A stretch of DNA of 64,000 bases from Tribonema minus. Taxonomy: Eukaryota > Sar > Xanthophyceae > Tribonematales > Tribonemataceae. Shown piece after piece: positions 6,127 through 64,000 of the stretch. Under the pieces are notes generated by a model. It was not told where the DNA came from and ran no database searches. It saw nothing but the letters and a program-made list of their open reading frames with translations. The translations under genes were made by a program, and so were the position numbers. The DNA is taken from the NCBI GenBank assembly GCA_017506865.1, contig JAFCMP010000446.1, positions 434,001 through 498,000 on the forward strand, read 5' to 3'. Position 1 is the stretch's first letter. Each line of letters starts with the position of its first letter.

Positions 6127-9100
6127 TCAGCTGCTCAGCTGGCCATCGCCAGCGTCGGCTTCCATGGCGTGCTCTATGGCGTTGCGCAGGCCGCGGCGGC
6201 TGATGATGTTCAGCGCCTGTGCAGCAACAACACGTGCATTAACAAGGGCAAGGATTAGGGCTAGGCCAAGCAGGTACTCAAGGCAGGTAGGTACGTTTTA
6301 ATAGTGTATGATAGAGCAGGTGTTCCGGAAGCAGCAGTGCTCAACAGCAATACAGCACTTCCGCATGAACGCCATCAAGTGTGACACATGAGTTCAAAGA
6401 GTGACGTATGAGGTTTCACACAAGGGGGTCACTGCCACTGATGGCGCGTCTCAGTAGCTGCTGGCGGTGGGAGTTGATGCCAATAAAGGGACCAGCAGAA
6501 GTGCTCAACAAGTGTTGGCACATCTCAGTAGCTGTTGGCGGTGGGAGAATTCATGTTGACAAAACCACTTGCAGAAGTGCTGAACGAGTGCCTGCTGCTC
6601 CGGTCCATGGCCAGCTGGTTCGAGTCATCGATACTCGCACGGCAGAAAAGAGGGCCGTGCTATGCTCAGTCCCATTTAATTCGACGTTCAAAAAGGTGGC
6701 CTAAGCAAGAATGACTCTAATGCTTCTGGAAAGCCTACCACCGGAGCAGTGTTCAGCAAGTACCTGTTGCTCCGTGACCTGGTCAAAGGCCAGCTCATCA
6801 AAGCCACCAGCGAGAACAACACTAATAAGACTCGCAGCAGGCTCAGCAAGTCGTCGCCCATCATCAGCAAGAACAACACTAATAAGAGCACCCGCAGCAG
6901 CGCTCAGCAAGTACCTGCTTGTCTGTGATCTGATCCATGGCGGGCTCATCGAAGTCGTCGCCCATCAGCGAGAACAACACTAATAAGAGCACCCGCAGCA
7001 GCGCTCAGCAAGTACCTGCTGCTCGGTGACCTGGTCCATGGCGAGCTCGTCAAAGTCGTCGCCCATCATCTTGGTGTACCACGCATCGAGCTTGTCGAGC
7101 AGCTCGCCGCGGTGGTCGTTGCTCCGCATGCGCAGCCAGATGTAGCGCGGCGACTCGCGGCTCTGAAACAAAATGTCCTGACTGCGCATTGTGACATGGG
7201 GGGGGGGGGGGGGGGGGGTATTGTGAAAGGGGAGGGAGCGCTTGTGCCTGTGCTGTGCAGTCGGGCTTTGTGGGCAACGATGATGACAATGACAGTACAG
7301 GTGCTGCAAGAGTATGTGGCGTATCTCTTTGAATGTCATGAATTCCACTCCTGCTCGTCTTGCTTTTGCCGACCGCACAACTTCGACATGCTGAATCACG
7401 AACTACCTGCTGTTCACACATAAACATCAACGTTGCCCCTGGTAGCCAACTGGCAAGATGGCACAGCCTCATGACAAGGGGGCCCAGCTGTACATCGACG
7501 CACAGCAACAGCTCATTCGCGCTCCGACGCCAGTGGATGCGCATAGAGCGCTTGCCTCTACGCTGCTCCTACCTATGTCCATGTGAAGCATACACAGTGT
7601 ATACTTTGTGAAGTATCATAATGATCCGCTATCAGGCCATCCAATTGGAAAGTTGCAGTCGAACGCGGCAGGAAGGAAGCTCAAAAGTTGCAGCAAGTTG
7701 AAGTTGAATATAGGGGAATTTAACTTGCCTTCGTTGGGCCACCTCGGTGCCATCCTCGCGCATGTACGACACGTACGGCAACAGCACATCGCCTATCTCG
7801 GGGGGCTCGAGCCTCATCACGACGTGCAGCCGCGATATTCTGCGCAGCAGCAGGGCACGAGCACCGCCAGAGCAGATGAAACAAATTGAAATGCCGTGCA
7901 TCAGAATCGAGATGGTGCCCCCAGCACGCAGCACACTCTATGCCGGCGTACTGCATACCGCAGAAGCAGTTCCGTTCTATGAGATAGCCACAATTACACA
8001 GCTGGAGCACCTGCAGCTTGGCGGCGGCATTTTCAGCACAGTGCCAGTCATCGTGAAGCAGTCCTGTCACCATGGCAGCCGGCAACCGCAGCCTTGCACC
8101 ATCAACTTCAACTCCATTTGCGCACCGAAAAAGCAACTGCGCACCTGTCATGAGGCCCATCCTGAGGCCAGATCAGGTCCATCTCGCCCCCCCCCCGCCC
8201 CGGCGACGACAGCGGCGGACCCCCCTTCCCCCCCGCCCCCGCCGCCCCCTGCGCACTTCCACCCCCCGCCAGCTGCACCTCGAGCACGTACACAGCGAGG
8301 CGCGTGAGCACGATCGCGTGGCGCGTGCCGAGCTTCTTCAGCACCACCGGCATCGCCCAGTCGCACCACTCCAGCCCCTCCATGTACCACAGCGGCCACT
8401 CCTCCTCCGTATCGCCGCCGCCGTCCTCCGCCGCCGCCGCCGCCGCCGCCGCTGCGGCAGCGGCCCCCGCCCGCGGGCTCACGAACCCCGACACCAGCCC
8501 TAGCCCCCCGGCGCCGAACGCACTCCCTGCGTCGCCTGGACGTATGCTCTTTGAGCGCGTCGACAGCGGGTTAGTCGCGGCGCCGCTGCCGCCGCCGGTT
8601 GCGGACGGCAGCGACGCTTGCAGCGAGGCCTGCAGCGGGTTCAGCGGCGCGCGCTGCGCTGCCGCCGCGGCGTGCGCTTCTGCTGCCGCCGCGGGCCCCG
8701 CCAGCAGCATGCGCGCCATGTCCGTGTTGCTCATGAAGCCGTTTGGGCGGCAGTGGACGGGGAGGGGGGAGCGCGCGGCGCCCGCGGCGGCGCGCGGCAG
8801 CGCCTCATCTGAGCAGCAGTGACGCGGGGGTAGGTATGATTGGGGGGGGGCAGTGAGGTGAGGGATAGGGCGCGCAGACTACGATGGCGTGAGCAAACTT
8901 GATCAGTGCTGCTGCTGCTGCTGTTGCATCATGAGGCGCGGGGACGCAGCGCGACGCGTTGGACGCGCGCGGAAGGACGTGGAATACAAATCTGAACGCT
9001 AACGCCAACCCTACGCATGTACAGTACACGGGGCGAGCTCACTGTTAAGTTCGACTATCAGTATGCCTGGTGTGAGCGGAGCGTACCAGGGTATTTACAC

Positions 9101-12100
9101 AGGCTACGCCATAGCTGCACCGACAGCACAGCTCTCTGGCCAGCTGCACCAGCATTGGAAGTTGCGCGTGCGACCATGAGCGTCTTACTCCAAAGCTGCC
9201 TTCCTTCGCCTGTGCCATGTGTATGTACATCGTGACATGCGAAGAGCGCAGGGTTTCGAAGCAGTCGCAATACTGATTCAACGGCCATCCTCCTCGCATT
9301 GCCTTAATGTGCTGCTTCCTGGCAATCTGCATTTTGCATGCAGTGGCGCCCAGGGTGAGCATTGACCTTGCCGAACCCTCACTTTGCACTGAACATGTGC
9401 TTTGCAGAACGTGCGTTTGCAGCAGCGGTGCCATGGTCAGCACGAGCACGGTTGAAGGCATCATGGACAAGACACGAGCTGCCTGCGTACGAGGCTGGTG
9501 CCTCTGCAGCACAGAGAGGCGTGTCATGCACACTTCAACTTGAAGTTCATACTTCAAGCATGGCGCGCAACGGGGCGGCCAGTTGATGCTGCAGTGCACC
9601 AGTCTGAGAATTACATCCAGGATCCCACCCTGTAGCCCCCTTGTATCACATTACACAGATGGTGCAGGAGCTGCAAGCTCTGACTCGCTTCTTGCTATCC
9701 GTGCTCCAGTGATACATGACATGTGGATTGGTGGACCACGCAGCCAGGACACCCCGTTTGGCCTCTGCCCGCAGCAGCCGCCACCGCAACGTACCTACCC
9801 AATGAACTACCTGCAGGTCTACGTACACGTTGACAACAACAGTTGTGTGCAGCCGCAACCTCCACCAGGCCACGTACCAATGGTCGCCTGCAGCTGCTTC
9901 TCCCTCAGGTGCCGGCTGCGCAGCTCCGCCAGCTCCGCAGTATCGACCATCTCCGACAGACCCCCCTCCAACCCCCCCCCCTCCCCCCCCTCCCGTACAG
10001 CCCCTCATCGGCCGAGCCGCCGCCACCGTCGCTGCTGTCATCGCTGTAATCGCGCCCGAGCAAGGCATCATCCTCGCTGGCGTCGTCCGCCGCAGCGCCA
10101 CTGCCGCCCGCAGCAGCGGCAGCAGCGCCGTCGCTCTCGCGCCGCAGCGGCGAGTACGCGTGCGCGGCAGGCGGCGGCGGCAGCGGCGCTTGTTTTGCCA
10201 GCGGCGTCACCGGTGGCGGCGGCGGCGCGCGCGCCGCGAGCGGCAGAGCGGGCGGCGGCGGCGTGTCGCGGAGCGGGGGCTGCTGCGGCGGCGGCGTTGA
10301 GGTTTCTGCGGCAGCGTCCTTGGGTGGCGCTGGTGGCGTCGCAGCGAGCTTGCCTGCGCGCGGGGGCAGCGGTTGCGCATGGCAGTTACGAGGGTGCGAG
10401 GCAGGCGCTGCGACGAGCGGTGTGTTGCTGAGAGCTGTTGCGGAGGTCGCTTTCCGAGATAATTGTGGTAAAATGGTATGGTACCGCCTGTTGCAGGTCG
10501 CTGGAGCCAGCAAAGCAGCAAGTACGCAGTCTTCGCACTGGCAGCACCACTGTGCACCACCAGCTCGCTTCGCAATAGACTTTTGAATATAGTGTTCGTC
10601 AGCATCGCCGCGTGTTACTGCCATGGTGATATACATGCCTGCATGCTTCCACCGCACAAGACATAGGGCTCACTCCTGGCACCTCAAAGCCAGCATGCGC
10701 TTTTGCTCACTGTCAACTTCAACCCTCTGCCGTATTGCTCAGCACGACGCACAGCACACATGAATGAGCACTGCAGCCAGCACTCACTGCTGCTGCGCCG
10801 CGGCGGCGGCGCCCGTGCCGCCGCCGGCCGCTGCGGCGGCGGCGCCAGCAGCCCGCCCTCCAGCTTCCGCGGCGACGCCTGCGCAAGCTGCAGCGCCGCC
10901 GCCGCCACCGCCGCCACCGACAAGTGCACGCCGACCGCCGCCTCGCCGCCACCGCCACCGTCGCCATTCCTGCTGCGTGCGCTGTCGCGGCGGCTGCCGC
11001 CCACATCAAGCGCGGGCCCGAGGCTCTCGCGCTTGGAGTGCCGCCCGCCGCCGCCGCCGCCGCCGCGGCTGCCGCCGGCCATCGGCAGCAGGTGCGCAGC
11101 GACGGAGCTGCTGCTGTAGGCGCGCGCGCGCGGCGGCGGCGCCGGCGCGTCGCTGGCGGTGCTGTACGAGCGCAGCGCGCGGTCGAGCTGCGGCGCGGCA
11201 ACGCTCAGCTGCCTGACGATGCCGCCGTGGCGCAGCGCCGCGTGCGCGGGGCTGGGCGCGGCGGTGGTGGTGGTCGCGCGGAAGTGGCGTGGCGCGGCCT
11301 GGTGTTTTGTGAGATTGGGTGCAGAGTTGAAGTGTGCGGAAGTTGGGGTGAGGGACAGGATGCTGACACTAAGTGCTGGATTTGGCCTTTTGTGTCGCAT
11401 TTGGATTCTTGCTGCGGGTAGGCACATGCCGCGGAGAATGCGGCTGTCGCAGCGTGTGCTGGCAGGTGTGTGCCATGAGACAGCAGACCCACGGAGGCAG
11501 TCGGCGGCACTTTGACTCTTACCCTCACCTTGATTCTAAGCGTGGCCGCAATATTGCGTGTCTGGCCACGTTGAGAAGCGCAGTTGCACAGAAGCGTGGC
11601 AACACAACGCGCGGTACATCTGCACGAGACTGTCAGACTATAGTACTTTGTATTTCAAGTTCAAGTTCTACTTTTGTTGCAAGGAGATGTTGGCGTATGC
11701 ACTCTCAATGCGCCTTAGCAGCGCACGGCCGTGAAGATCAGAAGCTGCGCTGCACAACTTTAAGCCCGGCGCAGCAGCGCAACACCGCCTTCTGGCCTGC
11801 CAAACTTCAATGCAGAGGCGCGCCCGACAGCACGCTCGGACTTCAACTCTCCTACAAGTATTAATACCCATACGTACGGTATCATGGCTCATTGCATATA
11901 GACCCTCTCAGCGCTCATGGACGCGGCGGGCGTCTCCATCAGCTAACTCTGTTACACGTATCGTCAACACCCATACATACGGTATCAGAGCTCATTCACA
12001 GCCCATGCCATAAATACCTTCTCATGGATGCAGTGGGCGTCTCCGGCAGCGACGGCGCGCTCAGGGTGCGTACATACAGTTCATCATAGGTCATACATGG

Positions 12101-15100
12101 TATTGCATGGAAACGAATCAAAAGATCGTAGAGCTCTAACTCATACATACCTTCTCAGCACTCATGGACGCGGTGGGCGTCTCCTGCAGCAAACTCTGCT
12201 ACATGTTTCAACACCCATACATACGGTATCATAGCTCAGTTCATACATACCTTCTCGGCGCTCATGGACGCAGTGGGCGTCTCCGGCAGCGACGGCGCGC
12301 TCGGGGTGACGTCGGCAAAGCTCAGCACCAGCGGTCGTCCCGGCTGCAGCGCACGAGAGCGTGAGGTAGATACTCAGCAAGGCTCAAGGCGACCAGGGTG
12401 GTTAATTTAACTTAATTACGGCACATCGAGGTAGTTACTTACGCGTAATTACGTCGTTTACTTACGCGTAATTACGTCCGTCACTCGGTAAGACTGACTT
12501 ACGGCATTTACGGCTACAGCCAACTTCAACCGATTGTAGTTGAAGTCCAACTTCAACACCTGCCAACTTCAAGTTTGAAACTTCAACTTGTGTTTTTACC
12601 GTGGTGTTCCTCGCTACAGCGGCCCTCGCTGCACTAGAGTGTCTGCAGATAGCAATAAATCAGTATCTGACATGCGTACACCGTGACTGTAGCTGCTGTT
12701 GGCGTGGAGAAGTGGTGGGGACGAAGTTCTGTGCAAGCACTCTCTCGCGAGGTGGGCTGTGCACCTCGCTGAGGTAGCCTGCAGGTATGCTTCATATGTA
12801 CTTGCAGAAAGCATTCAATATGCTTTCAAGATCTGCAATGATGATGCTCTTTCTACAGAGGTTGCACAGAGCTCCTGCGTGACCAAGCGCGAACGCATCT
12901 GCTCGGACGTTGCACAGTTACTATGCACAATTACAGCAACTGCTAAGCGCATTCAGTTGTATACAAAGGCATTGTGGATGCAGGGTCACTTTTCCTGCAT
13001 CTTATAGTAATGCTTTCACCAGAGCATCAACACAATACGTGGTGTTGAAGTGCGAAGCTCAACTTGAAGTCTGCCGTCGTTGCCGTACTTTATGAATTTG
13101 CAGTGACTTACTTACTTACTTACTCTGACGTAATTTGGCGTCATTACGTCATCAACAACCCTGAAGGCGACAGCGCAGCTATTGGTAGAGTGCTTGAGCA
13201 CTGCGCGAGGAGGTGTGAGCACTGGCGGAGTTGAGCGTCGGTGGTGCTGCGGTCAGCTGCACAGTCCCTGTGGAGCTGCCGAGCGTTGTTGGTGCCAGTA
13301 GCACTTGTCAATGCTTGCACCCCGGCATAAGCGAGCCCAGGCGCGGCGCAAGTGTCAGTTGTTGAGCGAAGCACTGGGCGGGGATGTGGGGAGGTGTTCG
13401 ACAGCATTCGCAGCAACACCACAGCGCAACACATTGTGCCATGCAAACACAGAATTCTCCCCATGAATGCACGCGCATATGCTTGCACTGTGCGACACAA
13501 TGTTCAGAGCCTATGATCGCTGACGCCAGCTTGGCTTCGAGCCAGAACACGAGCCAGGCACTCGTCAACAACTGCACACGAAAGCACTTCGTGAATTATT
13601 GTCGGGCAAAAGCGAAACCGCCATCTCTCACCTGTGGCCCCCATTTCAGCAGCATGAGGCAGTTCTGGAAGTCCAGGTCCACCACAGAGTTCTCGTTGAT
13701 GTGCGTCACCTGCATGCCCAACTTCAACTTCCCCTGCGACGGCGCCGCAGCCAACAGCAAACATTGGTTTAGAGACTTTGCCATCATGCTTGCTTGTGCA
13801 TGGTAGATATCATGATCACGCAACAAGAGGGCCTTGGGCTTGTTACGAGAAGAAGAGTGGTGAATCATCAGGGCAAGGGTTAGGGTTAGGTTCAACCCTC
13901 AGCTAAGACTATTAGTGGGACAAGGCGAGGTGCATTCAAATCACCCTAGTTCCAGTGGGCCTGCAGCTTTGACGCTCTTGAAGGTCTGCTATTGCGGATG
14001 CACATGGCGCTCAATGGAGAGTTGGCGAATGCTACCGCACATTACCACTCAGGCGCAACTCGCGCTGTGGGTGCACATACTTCAGCACCCATACATACCG
14101 CAACATGTGTCGCGCAGCATGCACAGGGCCCTGAGTTCTACCAACACCGCGGTCAAAGAGGTAGCTTACTCGACTGTCTCTTTGCCACGCGGGTGACATT
14201 ATGCTGAAAAGCGTGCACACAGCAAGTCTTTTGGCTCCTGTGGATATGGTCACCACATCATGGTGGCACTGTTTGACTCGTGGCTAAATGCTGCAGCAGC
14301 GGCGACCACGATTATCGGTGGAAGGCACTGGCGGCTGACCACACCTTATCACCTAGAGCTCTACGATCTTTTGAATGTTTCCATAGCCACATCACTACTT
14401 AGGCGCAGCTCGCGCTGTGGGTGCACCTACTTCAGAACAAATACATAGTGCGACTTGCACCACACAGCGCAAACGGCGCCCCTGAGTTCTGTCGAAACCG
14501 TCGTCAAAGAGGCAGCTTGCTTGACTGTCCATTCGTCACGCCAGTGCCATTACCTGCTGCTGCAGCGCGGAGGGCTTGCCGTCCAGCTGCACAAAGTCCA
14601 GCAGCTTGGCGCCCGTCGCATTGTGCTCGTGCACAGGCACGAACGCCAGGTGATTTGTCGGGCTGCCGGTGTTGAAGACGACCGTGGTGACGCCGCCATC
14701 GTCCGCCACCACTAGTCCGTCATCTGCTGAGGCAGCGGTGAGCCCACGTGTAGTGGGAAGTGTGTTTAGCAAGTATTGCCAGAAGCAATCACCCTTTTCC
14801 GTGTGCGCGACACGTTAAGATTGACCAAGGCGCAATGTGACGGTATCAGTGTAACGGGAAGCGCATTTAGCAGGCCAGATATTACCAGATCAAATCAATC
14901 ACCCATGTCTGTGCACGCCACATTAAGGTTGACCGCCGTCATCCAGTCCCACGTGTGCTGAGGCAGGTGAGCCCGCGTGTAACAGCGTAGTTAGCATGTC
15001 AGGTATTGAACAAAGCATTCAATTACCGTTGTCCGCGCGCGCGACACGTTGAGATTGACCGAGGCGCAACGTAACTGCATCAGCAGAGTTGGCGCCTACT

Positions 15101-15514
15101 CCCAGCAAGCGCTCTGATGGCCTCTGATTGGTGCCCGAACCGAATCAACTTGCAGATACCGAGTGCATGCGCAATCACCAATCAAGCAAGCCTTGAGCAA
15201 AACGCTGCTTCAAACATTCCTGGTTGCCCACCTTTCAATCGCTGTGCCAACCTGGCCTCGATGCGCTCTAGCAGCTTGGCTGTCGGGCTGTCCGCTCCCC
15301 CATGCAAGCCCCTGCTGCTGCTGCTGGGGGTGGAAAGCCTGCCTTTGCCATCCCTGCTCTTGCCAAGCAGGCTGACCTCCGCGTTATCGTGAGGCGGCGA
15401 CGCTGCTAGCCAGTCCGCGAGTGCAGATGATTTTCTGCCCCATTTGTAGCTGAACCTACTCCTCCGTTTGCCCTCCGTCGAAGGCGTCGTGGGAGTGGCT
15501 CTTGCGAAGGACAT
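6127..15514 (-). CDS. PDZ-domain protein, ten exons
   Basis: Exons, 5' to 3': 15514-15232, 14726-14554, 13733-13632, 12343-12251, 11298-10788, 10449-9878, 8808-8292, 7839-7725, 7162-7016, 6216-6127, giving about 867 aa. Exons 2-4 together form a PDZ-type domain: TTVVFN opens it, KLKLGMQVTHINENSV is the core turn, and GRPLVLSF ends it. Exons 5-6 are Gly/Ala/Pro-rich and end in a helix (AELAELRSRHLREKQLQ). Exons 7-9 read WCDWAMPVVLKKLGTRHAIV, SRLHVVMRLEPPEIGD and RYIWLRMRSNDHRGEL, possibly a PH-like fold. The C-terminus is acidic. All junction phases agree except within exon 6, where a G-run at about 9961-9996 must be one base longer (or two shorter) for the frame to pass. Exon 6 starts after an AAG, and exon 8 ends at a weak donor (CAA|GTTAAA). 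It is probably a scaffold or signalling protein. Confidence 0.75.
6700..7015 (-). repeat. Decayed tandem copies of PDZ exon 9 3' end
   Basis: Exon 9 ends DFDELAMDQVTEQQ followed by donor GTACTTGCTGAGC. Downstream in the intron the same junction recurs at about 6905-7000 and twice more at 6700-6905. Each copy holds the remnant of DELAFDQVTEQQ, then the donor and the phrase CACTAATAAGAGCACCC or similar. The copies are degraded and would not encode useful protein. Confidence 0.8.
7197..7218 (+). repeat. Poly-G run in intron
   Basis: About 21 consecutive G (C on the coding strand) in the intron between PDZ exons 8 and 9. Comparable runs lie at about 23516-23530 and 25846-25863. Length is unreliable in most sequencing. 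Confidence 0.85.
11885..12250 (-). repeat. Tandem copies of PDZ exon 4 3' end
   Basis: Exon 4 ends TPTASMSAEK then GTATGT. Three downstream copies (about 12150-12240, 12005-12080, 11890-12000) repeat the ACKGCGTCCATGAG exon end and the intron phrase ACCCATACATACGGTATC. Copies differ by substitutions and small gaps. Confidence 0.8.
12386..13171. mobile_element. Non-autonomous hAT-like element with 8-bp target duplication
   Basis: The element spans 12394-13163 (770 bp). Its left end reads CAGGGTGGTTAAT. The reverse complement of its right end reads CAGGGTTGTTGAT, so it has terminal inverted repeats of about 12 bp with one mismatch. The 8 bases AAGGCGAC lie directly outside on both sides (12386-12393 and 13164-13171), an 8-bp target-site duplication. 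TIRs starting CAGGG with 8-bp duplications are typical of hAT transposons. There is no transposase frame inside. Subterminal regions carry TTAC/GTAA-rich short repeats (ACTTACGCGTAATTACG twice at the left; CTTACTTACTTACTTACT at the right), as expected for transposase-binding sites. It sits in the intron between PDZ exons 3 and 4. Confidence 0.85.
14046..14553. repeat. Duplicated PDZ exon 2 junction split by a dispersed repeat
   Basis: Two copies of a ~160-bp unit lie at about 14046-14210 and 14395-14560 (shared phrases: AGGCGCARCTCGCGCTGTGG, CCTGAGTTCT, GTCAAAGAGG). The right copy abuts the exon 2 donor (14553). The left copy is a diverged duplicate. Between them, at about 14271-14391, lies one copy of the dispersed repeat also found at 22847-22955. 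Confidence 0.75.
14271..14391 (+). repeat. Dispersed intronic repeat, copy 1
   Basis: Starts GACTCGTGGCTAAATGCTGC and ends CTCTACGATCTTTTGAATGT. A near-full copy in reverse orientation lies at about 22847-22955 in the RCC1 gene. Partial copies lie at about 12107-12142 (reverse) and 56703-56745 (forward, NOG1 gene). No coding capacity is seen, so it looks like a short non-autonomous mobile repeat. Confidence 0.7.
14727..15110 (-). repeat. Tandem copies of PDZ exon 2 acceptor side
   Basis: Three ~110-130-bp units precede exon 2. Shared phrases include GAGGCAG(C)GGTGAGCCC, GCGACACGTTRAGATTGACC and GAGGCGCAACGTAACTG variants. Here the 5' (acceptor) side of the exon is duplicated rather than the donor side. 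Confidence 0.7.
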
Positions 15515-15863
15515 GTTGAACGCTCTCAGTGCATCAGGGGCGGCTCACACCACTGTCGCAGCCGCTGGCGTAAACACGTGCCGCTGTGTCGTCCTCCACA
15601 CACACACACTGAGGATCACGTGCCGCTGTTGTCGTCCTCCACACAGACACAGTGAGGATTCGCGCTTTCGAAAATTTCACCAACTTCAAGCACAGCCAGT
15701 TCAACTTGGTGAGGCCCACAGTGGCGTGCGCACGAAAGCGCCTGAGATGCAAACTGTAGATCTGCAGTAGCGCATGCGTGACTTAGTGTAACCCGCCGAG
15801 GTCAATACAGCGCACCTGCGCATTTGAACTGCCAAGTACCGTAAGTCCTGAGATTTGAAACAC
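15515..15863. promoter_or_regulatory. Short divergent promoter region
   Basis: Only about 350 bases separate the start codons of the PDZ gene (minus, 15514) and the RCC1 gene (plus, 15864), so they probably share a bidirectional promoter. A 30-bp tandem repeat (GTGCCGCTGTSGTCGTCCTC with ACACACACA, twice, about 15580-15655) lies within it. I see no obvious TATA box. Confidence 0.45.
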
Positions 15864-18800
15864 ATGATCGCGTCAACAAACACGAATCCATCTCTGCTGC
15901 TGCTGTGGGGCAGCAACAAGGATGGTCAGCTTGGTCTGACAACAGCTGCACCTGGCGAATCAGACGGCAATGCGGCGGAAGTGGGAGATGCCAGCCTCTT
16001 TGTGCAGGTAGACGAGGATGGCTTACAAGATTGCCCTCCCCAGAGCTGCAACCTGCCAACGCCCTGCGACGCTCTGTCATCGCATGTCATCACGGGCGTG
16101 AGCTGCGGCTCGCGGCATACTCTAGCATACAGTGCGAGCGGCGCTGTCTTCAGGTGCGTCTCAATGCACAAACGTTGAATGTACTTGCAGTGGAGGCCAT
16201 AGTGAGATCAACCAAAGTAGGTGGAACGAATGCTAAATGGTATCTGCCGTCTCAGTGGTGTACACTGCGAGCAGGTGACAGCTGCCATCATTGCCACCAG
16301 ACACGTGCTACTGTACTCCTGCAGTTGTCAACACTTGCGTTGCTCGAATGATGTGCCAGCAGAGCGCAGCATCACACCCAGTGCCAGGCAGCCAGGGCAA
16401 TGGACATGAAGGCAAATCACCGCTCTGTCAACCCCAATTCAGCCCGCTCTTGTGCACTGTCACTGCGCAAGTTCAACCAGCCACAGCAGTAAAACCACGC
16501 CTGCTGCATGTCAATGGACATGTAGGCAAATCATCGCGCTGTCAACCCCCGTTCAGCCTGCTCTGCAGCACTCGAATTCAACCAGCCACAGCAGCATACC
16601 AATGCCTGCTGCATGTCAATGGCATGATAATGCCTGCTGCATCGCAATGGATATGTAGGCAAATATTTGCTCTGTCATCTCCCATTCAGCCCGCTCTCAT
16701 GCACTGTCATTGCGCCAGTTTCACCAGCCTCAGCAGCATAACAATGCCTGCTGCACGTGCACGGACAAGTAGGCAAATCATCGCTCTGTCAACCCCGTTC
16801 AGCCCTCTCCCGTGCACTGCCATTGCGCGAGTTCCACCAGCCACAGCAACATAGCAATGCCTGCTGCATGTCAATGGCATGACAAGCATGTCAATGGCAT
16901 GACAATTCATTGCTCTGTCATCTCCTGTTCAGCCCGCTCTCAAGCACTGTCATTGCGCGAGTTCAACCAGCCACAGCAGCATAACAACTCCTCTACATAT
17001 CACTGTGATCTCTTGGGCCACAGCTGGGGCTGGGGAGCTTGCGGACAGCTAGGACATGGCGATCTGAGCAGCCAGCCACGGCCCAAACAGATAGAAGCGC
17101 TGAGAGACAGGAAGGTGGTGGCCATCTCTGCGGGCGGCATGCACAGTGCCGCCGTCGTGGACGGGGGGGAGCTGTACACGTGGGGGAACAGCTCATACGG
17201 TATGTACGGCCGATTTGCTGCTCGTGCTCTGTAGTGCACAAAATGCTGCTTGTCATGCGGCCTGACTGCAGCAACGCATGGTGGGTGGCCTCAACAAACA
17301 GTAGTTTTGAATTCAAAATGATTCCACTCCCTGCCAGAACTTGCAGAGAAGCATCCAAGAGCAACTTGGTTTGAACCCGTGCTTCCAAGAAGAACCTGCC
17401 AAAGATCCTGATCCCTTCCTACCTACCAGGAATGTCCCTTATTTCCTACAGAATGTCATTCTTCACAGGGTGATATTCAAATGTCTGCCATCCGCAGGCC
17501 AGCTGCCCGTGCTCTGCAACGCAGAAAATACTGCTTGCCATGCGGCCTGACTGTAACAACGCATGGTGGCTGGTATCAACAAGCGGTGCTGTGAATGCAG
17601 ATTCAACAAGCGGTACTGTGAATGCAGATGATGCTTGCAGGCTAAGTAATGTCATTCTTCACAAACTGGTTTTCAAATGTCTGCGATGTGCAGGCCAGCT
17701 CGGCCGGGGGGCACTGGTGATGGCGGCGGGCATCATCGCCGAGCCAGCGAGGGTGACCGTGGGGCCTCCGGTGAGTGCTGTGATGAGCAATGCGGACTGT
17801 GGAGCATTGTGATGCCATTGGGAAGCTATGGAGTTTTGAGCTGCTGATGCTTGTTCACCTTGTGAGTGAAGCCTGCTAATGACAAGAGGATGGGGCCAAG
17901 TATTTCCAAGTACTTGAACATGTGGCTCTGTTTGGCCAGCACGCGTCTGACATAGCTAGTAAATCCAATCATCTACTCTACGTATGTGGGCTTTTTGTTG
18001 TGCCAACTGAGATGTGCTTAACTGCAACGGGCATCACCTCTCCACACACGTGATTGACATCACAACAATGTGGCCACTTCGATGGCGCTCAGTTTCAGGG
18101 TACAGATATAAGGTGGTCAGCCTGGAGGGTGGCGTAGAGGCAGTGGTCAGCCCAGCAGCCCTCTGCAATCCGGAATCTACCTACCTGCACGCAGCCTTCT
18201 GCAATCCCAAATTCACCTGCTTTGAAGTGTTCTGTAACCATCGTGTGCCGGGTGACCATATTCTGTCTTCGTATGACCATCGTGCAGATCACGGAGGTGA
18301 TCCCAGAGGGCGGCATAGAGGCACAGGTCTGCCGAACAGCCTTCTGCATTCCTGAATCCACTTATTAGACATTTCACACCATCAACAATGTGACCGGTCC
18401 AGTGGCGCTTACTTCACTTCTGTGCAGATCACGGAGGTGGTCGGTCCAGAGGGCGGCGTAGAGGCAGAGGTCAGCCGCGTCGCCGCCGCGCATCGGCGGC
18501 GCTGCAGCCGCCACAGGGACTCGCTGAGGGAGCAGGAGGCCGCAGAGGCAAGTCACCTGCCGCGTAACTTCAAGTGTTGTGTTGAGCAATGACATGGGGT
18601 TGGAAACGCATAGGCATCGCAGGCGCTGCAGCCGCCACAGGCACTCGCTGAGGGAGCAGGAGGCCGCAGAGGCAAGTCACCTGCTGCATAACTTCAAGTG
18701 TTGTGTTGGGCAATGACATGGGATTGGAAGTGCATAGGTGTGTTGATATTGCATGGTATCCTGTGCAGGCATGGATTGAACGAGGCACCCGCCCTTTCTG

Positions 18801-27400: not shown

Positions 27401-27631
27401 TGTGTTGTGTGTGATCGGAGCAGGAGAGAGCTCCGGAGACTACTGATGCAGCATGCAGACTGATGGCTTGCAAACTGGTGAGCACATGAGCTGAATGAGG
27501 GTGCGCATTGCACCGGCGCGCCTGACGCCTCAACTGGACTTTGCCTCGCAATGGTTTCGCCTGCGTAAGTAGGTAAACAACGAGCGGTGTGTAATTCAGC
27601 GATCTGCAGTCCAATTCTTAACACATAAGTC

Positions 27632-30034: not shown

Positions 30035-30170
30035 GGTTGTACTTGTTATTAATTCTCGCTCAGGGCGCGAAAAAAGCCCACTGGCAGATGAATGGCATCT
30101 AACTTGCAGCTTGCTGTATGGAATCTACATATGTAGTGTGACAGTCTGAAAGCGTCTCAACGACAACCTC

Positions 30171-30650: not shown

Positions 30651-30669
30651 GACATGCACACTTGCCTTT

Positions 30670-48414: not shown

Positions 48415-48416
48415 TA

Positions 48417-51535: not shown

Positions 51536-52482
51536 GTAGGCTGTAGTGGGAGCAACGAGTTGTTTTAACAAGTAAAAAGATTCGAACCCCTCTCACGCAT
51601 GGTGTGGGTATGGGGCATGGGTATCCGGGATTCGAGTTGTATCTCGGGATGCCCCGGGGATCTCGGGATGCCCGGGGATCCCGGGCTTGGAGTTGTATCC
51701 CGGTGACATCTCCAAAAAGACCTGTGTGCCTTGCTCCGGGATTCAGGGAAGACAAAATGCCTGTGTCTCAGTCACTCCCAGTCTCCTCCTCGCCGCCAGG
51801 CTTCACGCTTTTGCGTTCATGGACGCCACTACTTCGCAGGTAACGTACATAACCGTCCATCCCCACCGTTTGCACCGGCCGCTTTAGAGTTTGGGATCAC
51901 AGCACACGCCCTGCTTGCTGACGGTGTCCAGAGTGTGTTCTCCTCATCTTGTTGAAGGTGTCGTCAAGTCCCTCTATGTGGCGCCATGATTAGGCATGCC
52001 TCTCGACACACAGCTGTGGGGTAGAGGCAACTCAACCAACTTGAAGGGGGGCTAGACTCAAGTCTCAGACTGGTGTAGCGATGTGTAGCGATGTGTCCAC
52101 CCTCTTGCACACCGTAGGAGTGATCCAAGCTTTCACACCCTCTCCATAAAGCGAGCTGGTTACTGCAGATAGACCACTGAGCAGGCGAATTGTGTGCGTC
52201 CACCACGCCGGCGCAGACAACCTTGTTCTAGTGGACTGTGGCACCCGCGGCACTTGCGGATTGGCACTTGCAACAGTGACCCGTGCCATCCATCTGACAC
52301 TCCGCCAAGCAAGTTGCTGCACTACATACATGGTGCACTGCACCTCAAATGAGGCCGCACAAGATGATTTCCATCGCATCACCCTGCATTGAAAGCACTA
52401 CAGTTACAGGAGAACCTGAAGGAGCTGCAGCAAACACACTGGCCTCAACCCCCCCACGTTATCTACCGTGTATGCTCCCACC

Positions 52483-54762: not shown

Positions 54763-57700
54763 ATGAGACAAGTTACCATGCTGCTGCTAGCATTGTGTGG
54801 CGGGCGAAGAGCAGCCTCTCTGGTGCCGGCCTCCCTTTCGAGGTGCAGCGCACATCGCAGCAATCATGTTTCGTATTCGTTGAGGCACACTAGCTCAGTT
54901 AACCATAGATGCAGACTTCTGCAGCCGATCAGCAGCAGCCTTCACCACAACGCTGCCCAGCGACTAGCAGCAGCAAGATGTCAACGATTGCATATGTCGA
55001 CATCGCAAGGCGAACAGCAGCAGCAGCAAGAGCACGCACAGGAGGAGCCATTAGCGCAACCACCGCAGGCATCGTCAGAAGGAGATGCAGCAGCATCACA
55101 CCCAGCGGGCAAGAAAAAGTTCCAAAGGAGAAGGCTGACCACCACGGGGGGACTCAAGGGCCTGCCCATAGCGGCACCTGCGGACGAGCTGTTGAGCGGA
55201 GCAGTGCGCAGGAGCAAGAAGATACGGCAGGATATGGAGGTGAGACAACCAGCTGAAGCGCTGTCAGCCGCTGCGTACACACGTTCTCGCAGTTGGCGCT
55301 GACTGCAGCGATTTCTCAGCTAGGTCCAGCAACAGCTAGTGTGCAGCAGCTGACAGCTACAGGAATCGCAGCAAAGAACTGCCAAGTGCGCGTGATGCAT
55401 GGTGGTAGGCGTCAATAGGACAGGCTGCATACTGTATGCACAAGAGGTCGTTGCGTGTGGTCGCGAAGTGCCCGTGATGCGTGGTCGTCGCAGCCAATAG
55501 TACAGGCTGCATACTGCGCTCCATGACAGCGCTTGTGCATCTGGTAATTCAAGCGCTTTTGGGCAACTCAATTTCACGCTACCACCTGCCCACCCTCTGA
55601 GCTGCGATTGCCATGCACCCCTTCCGCAGATCAAAAACGCGCGCAACAGGGCGCGGAAGTGGACCGCCGAGCGCATGGACACGCTGGCCAAAGAGATCTC
55701 CAAGCCGCTGCGCCACATCCTGGACCGCTACAACTACCAGATCCCCATACTGCACCCGTTTGAGGCGACCGTGGCGGACCTCACTGTCAGGGTAAGTGAC
55801 CGGGGGTCCACACCGCAGCGGTGTTGAGTAGGCGGCTGGAACGCACGTGCTGCAGTTGCTCGCCGCAATAGCCTCGAGTGCCATGCGCGGTTGGGTTGGG
55901 CCGCTCATGGGATCATGTCAAGGGGACAGACAGCGTCATTTGAGAACCGAATTGCAGCGGTGAGGTTTTGCGTACAAAGCGCTTGCTTTGATAAGCATGC
56001 GCGTACGCGCGCGCATGCATGCTCGCTTTAGTCCTCAATGAAGTGAGCGCTGCAGAACCTCTGTGCCATAGGAGAGCGTGTTGTGCAAGCTGAAGTCGCA
56101 CTGCGTAAAGCGCAGTGTCAAGCGGTACTGGATGCTTGCTGCGCTGCAAGTGCTAGGCGCGCGCCAGCCGCGGCGAGCGCACGCTTCAGTCGGTGCTGCG
56201 CAAGGGTGCACCCGTAACTGCCACTGTTGTAACTGCCGTAACTGTCAGGCGCGCGCCAGCCGCGGCGAGCGCACGCTGCAGTCCGTGCTCGACGAGGTGA
56301 ACGAGCTGCGCAAGGGCGCGCTCGGCGTCGGCAAGGCGCGCGCGATGGAGGCCAAGCGCCTGGAGAAGCGCGCAGAGATACTGGAGGTGATGGACAGGGG
56401 GTATGAGGACATGGAGTTCCTGTTCAAGAGGGTGAGTTTTGGAGCCTGCAGTTGAAGTTGAAGTAGTACTAGCACGGACAGACAGGCGGAGGTACTGGAG
56501 GTGATGGACAGGGGGTACGAGGACATGGAGCACCTGTTCAGGAGGGTGAGCGCGGGTGGCGGTTTTTGGGGCACGCATCTGAAGTTGAAGTAGTACCTGG
56601 TGCACTTGACATAGAGACGAGCTGATGGGATGGAGCACAGCAGCCAAGGCATGCACCATTGACACAAAAGGGGTTGTTGTCAACAGGGGGTATAACCATC
56701 CTTTGTCACCTAGCTCTACGATCTTTTGATTCATTTCCATAAAGATATGGAGTACCTGCTGAAGCGGGTGAGCGCAGGCGGCGGGACGCTTGAGGCACAC
56801 ATTCAAACTTAAAGTACATAACCATAAAAGTGCCATTCGCAAAGGTGCCGCTCTCTTCGTGTCATGGAGAGACATGTTGAGGCACGTGGTTCGGCATGAA
56901 GCAGTAGAAACGCTGCTGCAGAGACCCCAAAATTAATGCCCTGTGTGCGCGTAATGAAGAAGATAGCGGAAGGAGGCCACAGTCGGAGACGGCCACAAGC
57001 GCAGAAATGAAAATACTGCTGGACGTCGCCGACAGGGGTATGTACCAGGACACACTCTTCACGCCTGCACGTGCACGGTAGCAGCGCGTGCAAGGAGTTG
57101 ATGCAAGATACGACGATACGTAATTTGCATGATACACTCTTCCAGCCTCTGCACTGTATGAGGCGGAGATACTGGGGTGAGGCGATGGAAGGGAAGCGGC
57201 TGGGCACGTGAATAGACAACACAATGGGCGTCTGAATGACTCCAATGCGAAGTATGACGAGGGGGCCGCGGGCCCTGACCCCAACCCCAGATTGCGCGCC
57301 GCGTGCGTGTGCCATCTGTTCAGTCGCTTTTGTAGACAACCTCGCCGCTTATTTTGCATAGTTCGCGCGCTCAGTTAAGGCGCTCCCTTAAAACTGATTG
57401 TCGCCTGCTGATACGGTGCACGACGCCAAGGCACTCATCGCGCTTACCAAAGTGACTTTGACGAGCAATTTCTACTGGTAGCGATTCCTGGAGTGATCAC
57501 GAGAGTTGCGCATACTGGAGTGGTTGTGACAAGCGGTTACAGGTACAGTACCGATGCCATCTCTATAAAGAACAAACCGTGGCCCGCGTGCGCATTTTGC
57601 AGGACGGCCACATTGTCCAGGACCTCATCGAGATCCAGCGGCAGCTGCGCAGCATACCGGTGGTGCAGCTGCACGTGCCCACGATCGTCCTCGTGGGCGC

Positions 57701-60700
57701 GCCGAACGTGGGCAAGAGCAGCATCGTGCGCACGCTGAGCACTGGCACGCCTGAGGTCAACAACTACCCCTTCACCACGAGGGGCATGACTATGGTAAGT
57801 CGTACTTGAAGTAGGTGCAGAGGCATTGGATCATGATTCACGAAGACATGATTTATCACCAGCACCCGGAGCTTAACAAACTACCCCTTCGCCACAAGGG
57901 GCATGACCATGGTGAGTGGGGGGTTGCAACTGCACAGAGTTCAGTATTGCGAAACCGTTGGATCACGCATCAAGCTTACTGCCGTGAAGCTGTTTTCAAT
58001 ACATCTGTCTGAGGTTAACAACTACCCCTTCACCACAAGGGGCATGACAGTGGTGAGTCACACTCGCATCAAATACACGCAAATCCAAGCATGATTTACC
58101 ACTGGCACTCCGAGGTCAACAACTACCCCTTCACCATTTGGAGTCACACATAAGTCAAGTTCAATGCCATTAAGACTATTCATGATTCACAAAAGCATCA
58201 AGCTCACTGTCGTTAAGCTGTTTTCAGTACACCCTGCCCGAGGTCAACAACTAGCCCTTCACCACCAGGGGCATGACCACGGTGAGTTGCATTTGCGTTG
58301 ATTCCAGTATCATTCATGAAAGTAATCTCATCATGCCTGCTGGACTCAACAAGGACCCAGTAGACCACGATGGGCGTGACTATGGCAAATTACAGCGCAT
58401 GTGTATACATTTCTTACACGCAGGACCCATATTGTGCATTTACATCCATGTCGATTTTCACGTCTGCAGTACACAGCGCGACATTCATTAGGACGGTCAT
58501 GAGTTGTGACGATGGTGGTTTGCAGTGCAGGCGCAGACCCATGTTTGAGCTTCGTGTTGCAGAGTGTGCAGGCACCCTCAAGGTCAATTTTACCACCGAG
58601 GGGCATGATGCTGTCGAGACGCACCGCAAGTGCAGTTGGGGTTAAGATTTAGCAGCGGGCCCATCCCACCAGCCCCACTGCTTGTATACTTCTATGTCGT
58701 CCTTGGGCTTGACTAGGGGCTAGAATAATACCTAGGCTAGCCTAGTCCTACTTAGTTCTAGCAATCAGCCCGTGATAAGTGCCAGAACTTGAGGTTGATG
58801 GCGCACTGAGGTTGATAGTGCATTTCAAGCCGACACCGCACTGCGTGCCTGCGAGGCCGCGTGTATAGTCCACTTTGGACTTGCTTTAGACGTCGTCAAC
58901 GTCTTACGCAGCCGTTGTACATGCAGCAAAGCCGCGAGCGGAGGTGGACACGATGTCTGAGCGGTCAGCCCAGAGCAGCACCATGTCGCTCTTGTGTCGA
59001 CCAAAACTGTGTTCAACGAACAGGCTGCTCTTGTACTGTGACCGCTCTCATAGCGAGTGCTCTTGTATCGTAACTGAAATGGGGTGCATGCAGGGCCAAC
59101 AGTGAAGGCCTTGGGCTCGCCATTGCAGATGACAGGCCAGGCGCTTACAGCGTACCTACCATAATATGATACGGTGTCTGGGTCATTTGACTCACTCAAC
59201 CGCCAGCTTGCGAAACATGTTATTTCATCATGCTCTGCGCTTGCAGTGTCAGCTTGCGAAACATGTTATTTCATCATGCTCTGCGCTTGCAGTTCCAACC
59301 ACGTGAACATCATGCAATAATATACTAGAAGTACTAGCTTTACCTGGCGCTCCGCTGTCGCAAAGCCACATGCGCCCCCCCCTGTCGCAAGCTCGCTCGT
59401 GTACGAAAGATGTCTGATGCCATCGCAACGGTCAGCTCACAAACAAGCACCTTCTGTATTCTACACTCGCAGGGACACATGTTCCACCCCGTCACAAACC
59501 AGCGCTACCAGATGATGGACACGCCGGGAGTGCTGAGCCGGCCCGATGAGGAGCGCAACTGTATGGAAGCGCTCACGCTGGCGAGCATGCAGCACCTGCC
59601 GACCGCCGTTATCTTTGTGATGGACCTCAGCGGCTACAGCGGCGAGCAGAGCACCGTGGAGAAGCAGGTGCGTCACTTGCAGTGTGGTGTTTCCTCTTCC
59701 TTGAAGTAGGTGCAGCGTAACATGGAAGCGCTCACGCTGGCCAGCATGCAGCACCTGCCGACTGCCGTCATCTTTGTCATGGATCTCAGCGGCTACAGCA
59801 GCGAGCAGAGCACCGTGGAAGCAGGTGCGTCACTTGAAGTTTGGCAGTTCCTCTACTTCAAAGCAAGCAGGTGCAGCAAGCAAGCAGGTGCAGTGCAACT
59901 GCATGGAAGCGCTCACGCTCACGCTAAGCGCACCGTGGAAAAGCAGGTGCGTCACTTGCAGTTTGGCGTTTCCTCTGATTGCTTTCTTGAAGTAGGTGCA
60001 CCGCAACTGTGCGGAAGCGCTCGCTCTTGCCAGCATGCACCACCTGCTCAATGTTGTCATTTTGATAATGGACTCAGTGGCTACAGCGGCGAACAGAGCA
60101 CTGTCAAGACGCAGGTGCGTCACTTGCACTTTGGTGCCTGGGGAGCCTGGGACCCGTTCGCTTGAACTAGTAATATTGCAACTGCATGGAGATGCTCATG
60201 CTGCGCAGAGATGCTCATGCTGCGCAGAGATGCTCATGCATGGAGACGCATCATCGCAGCGCAAGAGCTGAGCATGTTGGGCATGCATGTCTGACATGTC
60301 GATGCCGTGCTGGAATGGTTACAGGTGGAGGTGCGGAACGAACTGCGCAAGCGGTTCCCCCGGCGGCCCTGGCTGGATGTCATCTCCAAGCTGGACTTGC
60401 CCCGAGAGGGCTTGGAGTTTGCGGTGAGAAAGCAAGACAAGAAAGTGCTTGCATCACAGTCAGCTCCGCTCGACACGCAAGTGTTTGCAGTGGACCACAA
60501 CTTCCAGCAAATATCCATAGACAGTCGTAACCCTCGCAACCAGCATATTTACAAGACAGCATGCTGCTGTGGCATGCAACGTTGATGTTGGCCAGCGCGC
60601 TGTAAAGGCCAATGCTCACAGCAGCAGCATGAAAGAAAACAGTTCAAATGAAGGCTTTGTCATGGTGCAAATGCGTGCATGTCATTCAGTGCCTGGCATG

Positions 60701-61043
60701 ACTGGCCCTCCTATGATGCTCGTTTCTGCATCAATCAGCAGCATTTCTTCCAGCACTGCGTGAGCTGGCCAAGGCTCGCAAGGATTTACGCCTCAAAAGA
60801 GGACCTCCAACTCATTTGCTGACATGTAAATGCCATGTTCCCTGGCTGTTGCTGCCACTGCCTATGCAGGCAAGCTCTCTGCCAGAGGGCTATCTTGACG
60901 TGTCTGTGCACGATGGACGAGGCTTGGACGAGCTCCGCACCCACGTGTATGACATGCTTCAAGTCATTGAAAGCGTGCTCTTCCCTCCTCCTCTGATCGA
61001 TTCTGATGGGGAGGGCGAGGAGGAGGGGGCCGAGCCCGAATAG
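54763..61043 (+). CDS. Organellar-type NOG1-family GTPase, seven exons
   Basis: Exons: 54763-55239, 55630-55791, 56249-56431, 57543-57794, 59473-59667, 60325-60423, 60870-61043; all in phase, 513 aa. The N-terminus (MRQVTMLLLALCGGRRAASL, many Ser/Arg, few acidic) looks like a mitochondrial or plastid transit peptide. GLPIAAPADELL then matches the NOG1 N-terminal domain, followed by the helical region (RARKWTAERMDTLAKEISKP, YNYQIPILHPFEATVADLTV). G-domain motifs: G1 GAPNVGKSS, G2-region YPFTTRGMT, G3 DTPG, and a G4-position SKLD in place of the usual NKxD. The acidic tail is GEGEEEGAEPE. NOG1/Obg-like GTPases assist large ribosomal subunit assembly. Transit-like start and compact length suggest an organellar ribosome, but localisation is inferred. 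ATG 54763 is the first in frame; 54778 is an alternative. Confidence 0.85.
56155..56790 (+). repeat. Junction copies around NOG1-like exon 3
   Basis: Upstream: a copy of the exon start (GGCGCGCGCCAGCCGCGGCG at 56156). Downstream: copies of the exon end EVMDRGYEDMEFLFKR|GTGAG at about 56488-56550 (intact frame EVMDRGYEDMEHLFRR, donor GTGAGC) and a shorter one at 56745-56775. The TTGAAGTTGAAGTAGTAC motif follows the first two donors. Confidence 0.85.
56703..56745 (+). repeat. Partial dispersed repeat copy
   Basis: CACCTAGCTCTACGATCTTT ... CATTTCCATA matches the end of the repeat at 14271-14391. Confidence 0.6.
57850..58630 (+). repeat. Donor-side copies of NOG1-like exon 4 (G2 region)
   Basis: The exon end EVNNYPFTTRGMTM|GTAAGT recurs at about 57867-57915, 58010-58058, 58109-58135, 58237-58285, and more weakly at 58345-58385 and 58578-58620. 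Most copies keep a GTGAGT-like donor after GGGGCATGAC. Confidence 0.85.
59208..59295 (+). repeat. Perfect 44-bp tandem duplication
   Basis: CAGCTTGCGAAACATGTTAT ... CTGCGCTTGCAGT occurs twice without differences. It is probably a recent duplication (or an assembly artefact) in the intron before exon 5. Confidence 0.8.
59705..60120 (+). repeat. Donor-side copies of NOG1-like exon 5
   Basis: The exon part ALTLASMQHLPTAVIFVMD ... STVEKQ|GTGCGTCACTTG recurs at about 59715-59835 (frame nearly intact), 59895-59960 (shortened) and 60003-60125 (decayed). All keep the donor phrase CAGGTGCGTCACTTG. Confidence 0.9.
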
Positions 61044-61595: not shown

Positions 61596-64000
61596 ATGGC
61601 GCGTGGTGATGATGATGCTATGGACGTAGATGTAGACGCCGACTCCTCTGACATTGATGAGGTCGAGGGTGAGCCCGGCATGGACGACAGCGGCAGCGGC
61701 GATGGCAGTGTCAGCGAGTTCGAGCCGGATCCCGATGACTACGATCCGGAGGACGAGCCAGCAGACGAGTACGAGGAGGAAGACGACGAGGACACCGCCG
61801 ACGTCCGCGCGAATGGCGGCTCTGACAACGACCTCCAGGATAGCAGCGATGACGCCTTCGAGGCGCGTCAGGCGAAGGGGGGCAAGCGCCGGCGCCTAGC
61901 CAGCAGCGCGGACGACGAGGAGTCGGACGAGGCAGCAGCGCAGCAGCGGCAGTCTCTGGAGGCGCAGCGCAACAAACTGCAGCCGTATGGTCCTGAAGGG
62001 GATCAGGCTGATGCTCTGGAGGATGGCTGGTTCGAAGGGGAGGAGGCTGAAGCCGCCATCGAGGAGTATCAGTGAGTGGTGCACACGCATGTTACTCGTC
62101 AGCTGCCTGGTGATGGTTAGGTTGGCAAACACATGCATTGTTGACACTTCGTCACGCTCCACGTCTCTGCGCCAGCCAACGCACAATTGCTCGGCAGGCA
62201 TCAGAGTCTGCTTGGTTGAGCGGGCAACAAACGTGGATAGATCATCAGACCCGCTATACAGCATCGCACAGCATGTCATGACTCATGAGACATTCAGCAG
62301 TGCAAGCAACCGACTCAAAGCTATACTGATTTAAGTATGTGCTCTTAGTGCCCCAGCAGATGAAGCGCCAAAAGCTGCGGATTGCAGTGCTCTGCTTGCC
62401 GCATCAGACAGTCGCGTGACCTGCTGGCGTTGGCGACCGCTCACCAGTCTGCAGCAGAGCAGCAGCGGCAACAGCTGTCCTCACTGCGCGCCCCCGTCGC
62501 CATGCTGCCTACGAATCTGTCAGCCATTCACCGAAGCATAATCAAGGGATGCATTGTCCCTGCCAAGGATAGGCAGATGGGCAGGGCAGCCTGCGGTGCA
62601 CTTTTGTCACCGTCTTAACTTCAACTTTCATCAGGTAGACCGCGCTGCGCCCGCACAATGTGCCCTCACCCCCACGCACCCTCCCGGCGCCAACGCTACG
62701 CGACGCTTTCCAGGTACCTCGTGGACCACAGCCAGCCCGCGGAAGCATCGGCCGCGGCGCCGCCGGCCGCCGCAGCCGCCTCCGCCGCTGCCGCTGCTGC
62801 CGCCGCCGCCGATGCCGCCGGCCTCTTCGAAGCGGACGACGCCGACGAGGTCTTCGCGGGCACGATGCGCGAGGTCGATCTGCCGGCGGAGCCAGAGCGC
62901 GGCGAAAAGAAGACGGCGGCGCGCGCGCGCAGCAGCGGCGGCGGCGGGCGGCGCAAGTACGGCAAGCTGCGGCCCGTCATCGACGACCTGCTCGGGCGCG
63001 CGAACCAGGCGATCATGGCGGGCGACGTGCCGGCGGCGATGGCGGCGCTGCGCGAGGTGGTGCGCATCGCGCCGCAGGTGCCGGAGGCGTACCGCTCTCT
63101 GGCGGCGGTAGCCGCGGAGCGCAAGGACACACGGCTTGAGCTCGAGTTCAACATGTGCCTGTGCGGCCTGGACAAGTCGGTGAGCGGCGCTGGGGTGATG
63201 CCTAGGGTTAGATTTAGGGTGAGCATTAGGGTAATTGCCCATTTGTGCAGGGACACGCGCCTCGAGCTCGAGTTCAACATGTACCTGTGCGGCCTGGACA
63301 AGTCGGTGAGCGGCGCTGGGGTGATGCCTAGGGTTAGGGTTAGGGTTAGCATTAGGGTAGTTGCCATCTGTGCAGGGACTCGCGCCTCGAGCTCGAGTTC
63401 AACATGTGCCTGTGCGGCCTGGACAAGTCTGTGAGCGACGCCAGGGCTGCGTCTAGGGTTAGGGTTAGGGTTAGCATTAGGGTGAGAGCGGCCCATAGAG
63501 TTGCCCAGCTGTTCAAAGCCACGCGCTTCGAGCTCGAATTAAACATGTGCCTGTGCGGCCTGGACAAGTCGGTAAGCCGCGCTACGGCAACACCTAGGGT
63601 TGGGGTTAGTTTACGGTTGGGCCTAGGGTTACAGTTGCCTGTGTGTTGAGCCCTGGACATGTCGGTGCGCAGCGCTAGGGTTGAGGTCAGGGTCAGGGTT
63701 AGGGTTTAGGCTTAGGGTTGCTGTTGAGCTGGTGGACAAGTCGGTGAGAGGCGCCAGGGTTACGTCTGAGAAGTGTTAGGGTTAGTGTCAGGGGCAGGTT
63801 TAGTGAACACCCTGGATCAGCTGTTGCGCAGCGCTAGAATTGAGGTCAGGGTTTAGGGTTAGGATGGATTTAGAATTAGGCGTAGGGTGTATGTTGAGCT
63901 GGTGGGAACGCCCTGGACAAGTCGGTGCGCGGCGCTAGGGTTGGGGTCAGGGTTAGGGTTAGGGGTGGGGTGAGGGTCAGGTTGAAGCTGCCTATCTGTT
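61596..64000 (+). CDS. GTF3C3: TFIIIC subunit 3-like TPR protein, 5' part
   Basis: Exon 1 (61596-62071) starts at ATG 61596. It is very acidic (SEFEPDPDDYDPEDEPADEY) with a basic patch GGKRRRL, and ends GWFEGEEAEAAIEEYQ. Exon 2 (62714-63179, acceptor CTTTCCAG) joins in phase to give an Ala-rich linker, a second basic stretch (RRKYGKLRPVIDDLLGRANQ) and the first TPR (AIMAGDVPAAMAALREVVRI, then APQVPEAYRSLAAVAAERKD). Acidic N-terminus, then KLRPVIDDLLGRANQ-like entry into TPRs, matches the Tfc4/GTF3C3 subunit of TFIIIC, which contacts TFIIIB and recruits RNA polymerase III. The last coding bases seen are at 63179; further exons lie beyond the window. The intron that follows is filled with junction copies. 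Confidence 0.7.
63120..64000 (+). repeat. Tandem exon-end/TTAGGG array in TFIIIC-like intron
   Basis: Units of ~90-125 bp begin with the exon end (TRLELEFNMCLCGLDKS|GTGAGCGG...) and end in TAGGGTTAGGGTTAGG-type sequence. Clear copies start at about 63120 (real exon), 63250, 63375 and 63520. Later units (63650, 63730, 63810, 63910) keep only CTGGACAAGTCGGTG. Donors remain in most units. The array reaches the window edge. Confidence 0.85.

Follow-up and report, generated by a model that had tools for sequence, protein, structure and literature searches.

Why do introns carry decayed copies of the exon ends that border them, complete with splice sites? This question is raised by a 64-kb window (C446:434001–498000, the whole stretch of DNA analyzed here) of the genome of Tribonema minus (158.2 Mb, 554 contigs), a xanthophyte of the PX clade within the stramenopiles. 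Brown algae are members of the PX clade as well. A first-pass annotation of the window had reported such copies in several genes and had proposed an ongoing process that acts at exon–intron junctions. We recovered the copies in an RCC1-like gene, a NOG1-like GTPase gene, a TFIIIC-like gene, and a minus-strand gene. Based on their distribution and decay, small local tandem duplications that arise regardless of exon borders probably lengthen the introns of T. minus.

The RCC1-like gene (15864–23210, plus strand; Pfam RCC1/RLD matches) has an open spliced frame, encodes a protein with a hit among T. minus proteins, and continues in the 3′ direction. Nine exons were modeled (15864–16153, 17024–17199, 17694–17770, 18428–18547, 19254–19362, 20028–20141, 20896–20990, 21904–22079, and 23032–23210), with the end of exon 6 and the start of exon 7 corrected using P0003, a transcript-derived protein from a relative that matches exons 6–9 at exon-proximal sites. 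In introns 4–8, repeats cross a junction with 8 bp or more on either side of it. Two contiguous 124-bp units (18490–18738; Tandem Repeats Finder [TRF] and copy alignment) each contain 58 bp of the exon 4 end, a GC donor, and intron sequence, and are 93% identical. Similarly, two units offset by 126 bp (19292–19537; self-comparison and copy alignment) each hold 71 bp of the exon 5 end, a GC donor, and intron sequence (88% identity). These are neighboring GC-AG introns (at 18548 and 19363), and both of their GC donors are duplicated. Farther downstream, the acceptor and start of exon 7 occur in six to seven copies (20227–20919, period ~124 bp; exon part 17–31 bp in the six aligned copies), the exon 8 acceptor with its first 20–44 bp has four upstream copies (21385–21947) with the functional copy last, at 21904, and the exon 8 end (86 bp) with its donor has four downstream copies (21994–22836; copies from 22155, 22206, 22425, and 22722). 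The count per intron is six in intron 6 and four each in introns 7 and 8. Intron 2 contains an acceptor repeat that takes in ~7 bp of exon. In intron 3, the exon start (~50 bp) is copied twice, with intronic parts of 6 and 0 bp. The tandem array of intron 1 (16398–17005; TRF and self-BLAST) is purely intronic, with units of ~114 and 247 bp, ends 18 bp before the acceptor, and spans no junction.

In this region, a deposited protein model of the gene, P0001, is reproduced when the transcript is spliced from an internal position of exon 8 to the copy at 22725–22807; this is probably a prediction error, although it may be a real isoform. The first residues of P0001, read by eye, are apparently encoded near 11360 on the plus strand, inside a gene on the opposite strand, and the model as a whole (~11360–22807 in the window) is probably a mis-annotation.

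The NOG1-like GTPase gene (54994–61043, plus strand; Pfam NOG1 and MMR_HSR1) comprises seven exons (54994–55239, 55630–55791, 56249–56431, 57603–57794, 59473–59667, 60325–60423, and 60870–61043), and its spliced product is 100% identical over 100% of the length to the annotated T. minus protein P0121, which uses the exon-proximal splice sites and skips the copies. Exon-edge copies are found in introns 2–5, and those of introns 3–5 alone reach 8 bp or more on each side of a junction. As the first-pass annotation had noted, both sides of an exon can be affected: exon 3 (56249–56431) is flanked by a copy of its start in the upstream intron (56155–56197; 41 exon bp, 95% identity) and by two copies of its end with the donor (56486–56814; 60 and 24 exon bp). 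The exon 4 end has five copies in intron 4 (57862–58390; 38–55 exon bp), three of which contain single-base gaps and one an in-frame TAG (by eye), and copies of the exon 5 end with its donor, holding as much as 116 bp of the exon, lie at 59722–60136, where frame-breaking gaps are present.

To determine how general these repeats are, we used 34 introns with modeled junctions. Fourteen belong to the two window genes described above, both flagged by the first-pass annotation, and 20 unflagged kinesin introns provide the fairer sample. Beyond the window, kinesin motor exons were located with Pfam PF00225 (132 matches), and 20 stretches (L039–L058) were fetched. Intron limits were set from splice motifs and the reading frame, and neighboring pieces with a profile gap below −14 or above 16 were omitted. 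A first filter reduced 32 candidates to 22, of which 20 (score at least 3.5) were used; 12 in all were dropped before counting. Direct local repeats were present in 25 of the 34 introns (12/20 in kinesins) and inverted repeats in one, and a repeat lies across a splice site in 18 (10/20 in kinesins). Controls of the shuffled kind proposed in the first-pass annotation contained no direct match (0/170 when the 34 introns were dinucleotide-shuffled). At BLAST sensitivity, 7243 of 25,127 intron bp (29%) lie within repeats. The excess of direct over inverted orientation extends to the window self-comparison (74 repeat pairs less than 4 kb apart: 71 direct, 3 inverted) and to all 58 fetched loci, some of which overlap (384 direct vs. 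14 inverted pairs). Same-strand copies with 20 or more exon bp and no more than 2 kb away were found for 35/74 kinesin exon pieces of L039–L058, and opposite-strand copies for 0/74. Thirty loci partly repeat these 74 pieces, which are the set quoted here; all 104 partly overlapping pieces gave 40 same-strand copies and one opposite-strand copy. Among 61 nearest-copy pairs, copy-to-copy offsets lie between 57 and 517 bp with a median of 142 bp, and copy identities range from 67% to 98% (median 84%), a spread that a continuing process would give. These results support the earlier proposal that tandem copying, including exon ends and splice sites, lengthens introns and seeds decoy sites, and the pattern recurs in unrelated genes.

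The exon-derived copies are largely local. An exon edge recurs in its own adjacent intron in 23/68 cases, compared with 1/68 for one random intron of another gene and 0/44 for an intron of its own gene that does not adjoin it. (This comparison replaced an other-locus control with kinesin exons, 15/104, which was discarded because kinesin exons match paralogous kinesins; 100%-identical rows of the exon-end copy search that contain no exon bp are self-overlaps.) Matches between exon and intron reach to within 5 bp of the exon edge in 39/44 cases, where random placement expects 8%, and only 1/44 lies more than 40 bp from the junction. Such local, edge-anchored matches are expected from a tandem duplication that crosses the border. 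A further comparison concerns position. Counting a junction as spanned only if the repeat covers at least 8 bp on each side, 19 of 68 junctions (28%) were spanned (donors 12/34, acceptors 7/34; kinesins 11/40, window genes 8/28), and 248 of 931 interior intron positions (27%) were spanned as well (227/931 when only intron–intron matches are used), with no significant difference (Fisher p = 0.78). Together with the purely intronic array in RCC1 intron 1, this speaks against the earlier claim that the process acts at exon–intron junctions. We infer that the exon-edge copies look prominent because their exon partner, being under selection, hardly changes, so that they stay recognizable for longer than copies in which both partners are intronic.

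If a copy drifts freely and its exon is constrained, divergence at codon positions 1 and 2 should be 0.5 of that in introns. For 51 copies at 24 junctions, each compared to its own exon, divergence was 63/719 (8.8%) at position 1, 39/722 (5.4%) at position 2, and 133/712 (18.7%) at position 3; for the intronic stretches of these alignments it was 200/1311 (15.3%). The resulting ratio of positions 1 and 2 to intron is 0.47 (confidence interval [CI] 0.34–0.65 by junction, 0.41–0.57 by 8 genes). Of the 14 indels in the exon parts, 12 break the frame. Splice dinucleotides were strictly retained in 39/48 copies (43/48 if GC is accepted for GT), a count that may be inflated since only alignments extending past the junction were used; intron dinucleotides were retained in 686/1046 (65.6%), the square root of which (0.81) is the expectation with one side fixed. 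Judged from these sequence comparisons, the copies decay roughly neutrally, and the decoy splice sites seem to be neither preserved nor purged. This codon and splice-site decay leads us to reject extra functional exons and coding constraint on the copies. By motif, donors in copies come close to real ones (6.4 vs. 6.7 of 9 consensus matches; n = 21). In the modeled arrays the real donor comes first and the real acceptor last, so that the real pair defines the shortest exon. Both the gene model P0121 and the relative's P0003 have a single intron where the arrays lie, and the model P0001 shifts into one copy.

The events behind this pattern are probably as follows. Small tandem duplications (offset 57–517 bp) would hit introns anywhere, indifferent to exon borders, and may be generated by end joining or slippage. 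Where the duplicated stretch crosses a border, the intron would acquire an extra exon edge and splice site. The shortest exon would still be set by the donor or acceptor that lay next to the exon from the start, leaving the protein unchanged, with exon definition (shortest exon wins) presumably rendering the decoys harmless. An event that does not alter the protein would be nearly neutral, and the copy would then decay while selection holds the exon.

Several observations weigh against duplication irrespective of borders. Detection is better at exon edges than in the intron interior, and the equal rates may therefore hide weak selection or bias. Most pairs are non-contiguous: among 61 nearest-copy pairs, the match covers at least 0.8 of the offset in only 11 and at least half of it in 26, and decay is assumed to have erased contiguity in most of them. 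In only 6/11 arrays does the greatest similarity fall on the nearest copy, and later multi-unit events or conversion are needed to account for this. Position 3 diverges somewhat more than the intronic part (ratio 1.22, CI 0.98–1.49), and exon-part indels (14/2153 aligned bases) occur at less than half the intron rate (32/1311); the simple model foresees neither, and both may be caused by alignment choice. With regard to splicing, P0121 is a gene model, and P0003 comes from a relative whose genome may lack the decoys. Eight PDZ-family loci showed no strand contrast (two same-strand and two opposite-strand exon copies). Finally, the counts cover introns and exon edges; the ab initio coding map of the window is too coarse to delimit intergenic DNA. 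Two narrower models were rejected. A conveyor that always adds its newest copy beside the exon does not fit the 6/11 arrays, and unit joints forming AG, which would provide ready mini-introns, account for only 4/24 joints (p = 0.09).

Other processes could in principle produce similar arrays. Breaks or slippage occurring preferentially at exon–intron borders, copying exon ends into introns, would agree with exon matches that run to the exon edge and with the 18 of 25 direct-repeat introns whose repeat spans a splice site. We consider such targeting unlikely, given that junctions are spanned no more often than the interior, that 7 of the 25 repeat-bearing introns have no repeat at a junction, and that edge copies are more readily detected thanks to their conserved exon partner. 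Alternatively, break repair could paste exon-edge pieces into introns in an arrangement other than head-to-tail (templated insertion or ectopic copying), which would account for the 50 of 61 nearest-copy pairs that match over less than 0.8 of the offset. This origin appears very unlikely because the copies, with few exceptions, share the strand of their source and lie in the intron next to it, they carry the splice site and flanking intron, and the young pairs (18490–18738, 19292–19537, and 63121–63483) are contiguous.

The copies might also be in use, as alternative or mutually exclusive exon ends or as decoys kept for regulation, a possibility in keeping with their near-full-strength donor motifs and with P0001, whose use of 22725–22807 could reflect a real isoform. 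Decay of codon positions and splice dinucleotides near the neutral single-lineage rate, the frame-breaking majority of indels, the in-frame stop in a NOG1 copy (by eye), the skipping of NOG1 copies in P0121, and the proximal RCC1 structure of P0003 all make usage highly improbable. An assembly artefact can be practically dismissed: repeats this long pose difficulties for assembly, but the copies differ from each other (median identity 84%) with indels, occur on several contigs, and leave the NOG1 and RCC1 exons open. Local duplication without regard to exon borders thus is the explanation we favor.

Parts of this explanation have precedents. Rogers 1989 is said to have put forward a tandem-duplication model, as cited in the potato-gene paper considered below, and Vaughn and Bennetzen 2014 is reportedly a source on small tandem duplications from end joining. 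The closest case we found is this single potato gene, in which a duplication across an intron–exon border created a new intron (PMC4974935); a second paper lists tandem duplication among the routes by which introns are gained (PMC3443670). The potato case resembles ours in that a short head-to-tail duplication across a border carries splice signals and an exon edge; it differs in that the copied signals are used and yield a new intron in one gene, whereas the copies described here are apparently unused and arose in several genes over several rounds. Small tandem duplications are known to arise by end joining of breaks with overhangs and, according to PMC8355091, are the commonest short insertions in the human genome; like these, the repeats in T. 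minus are local direct duplications, but that class is put at under 100 bp, compared to a median offset of 142 bp and arrays of six or more units here. Introners likewise alter intron content across many genes (PMC9860276). Unlike introners, which copy themselves into many genes, the exon-edge copies derive almost only from the adjacent exon (1/68 exon edges recurs in another gene's intron, a comparison that covered the exon edges of the units). Exon and intron definition are described in PMC3488318, and passages of a kelp genome paper (PMC4421812) give intron sizes and no such mechanism. Among the open-license literature matches listed, judged by titles and the openings of abstracts, recurrent and apparently unused border-crossing duplication was not found as a mode of intron growth, and an earlier report elsewhere is possible.

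A broader claim, which we advance only tentatively, is that thousands of intact decoy splice sites, each surrounded by copied exon and intron sequence of tens of base pairs, are ignored in this alga and that tandem duplication is a main route of its intron growth. If so, position (the nearest site, the shortest exon) would have to be the main determinant of splice choice, local sequence being nearly equal at real and decoy sites, and introns would be a record of past states of their own exon edges. Real and near-identical decoy sites of several ages, lying within one intron next to a conserved master copy, allow tests of position vs. local sequence in splicing, and the decoy copies give an internal yardstick for intron growth. 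They may also explain erroneous gene prediction in T. minus, as in the deposited RCC1 model that uses a copy.

Other genes in the window show the same kind of repeat to varying degrees. In the minus-strand gene (5.6–15.5 kb), which the first-pass annotation labeled PDZ (a name without a Pfam match in 5600–15540 on the minus strand), two of the listed arrays were recovered: the exon end at 7016 is copied together with its donor at 6852–6967, 6741–6803, and 6571–6630 (array 6571–7016), and so is the exon end at 12251 at 12141–12190, 11945–12068, and 11845–11943 (array 11845–12251). Two further sites listed for this gene (14046 and 14727) are weak: an intron repeat (14038/14388) reaches the donor by only ~6 exon bp (by eye), and an acceptor copy at 14945–14981 holds 13 exon bp. 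For the 14.55-kb exon, the exon-end copy search did not recover the donor string that was tried. In the TFIIIC-like gene, a label likewise without a match in the Pfam search, the exon end at 63179 with its donor (59 exon bp) is followed by six downstream copies at 63247–63964 (array 63121–63983, plus strand), the intronic part of these units holding telomere-like TAGGGT runs. The IQ/WW gene retained its WW label by Pfam (as RCC1 and NOG1 did theirs), and the Pfam search gave no IQ match; its listed site corresponds to one direct-repeat pair (60 bp, 93% identity, at 41934/42028 within 41934–42087), unplaced relative to an exon edge.

Certain short words are over-represented. Telomere-like TTAGGG words occur in the intron at 63190–63983 and in fetched loci, and the telomere-like TAACCCTA/TAGGGTTA was counted 109 times in 186.6 kb (the window plus L039–L058) vs. 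1.3 expected. A second pair, AACTTCAA/TTGAAGTT, occurs 29 times in the window vs. 0.84 expected from shuffles, and 92 times in the 186.6 kb vs. a Markov estimate of 11.4, on both strands and in 19/21 sequences. The telomere-like words might be scars of break repair, which we regard as a lead and not as evidence. An inverted repeat of 896 bp (98.3% identity; 27631–28525 and 31414–32307, with ~2.9 kb between the arms) resembles a mobile element or an inverted duplication, and the six frames of 27600–32400 gave no Pfam match. Lastly, an open frame at 52420–53346 (plus strand) contains an in-frame tandem repeat of ~50 residues (~2.5 copies, 82% identical), which may be a tolerated exonic duplication (at 52.6 kb) with a unit size similar to that of the intron repeats.

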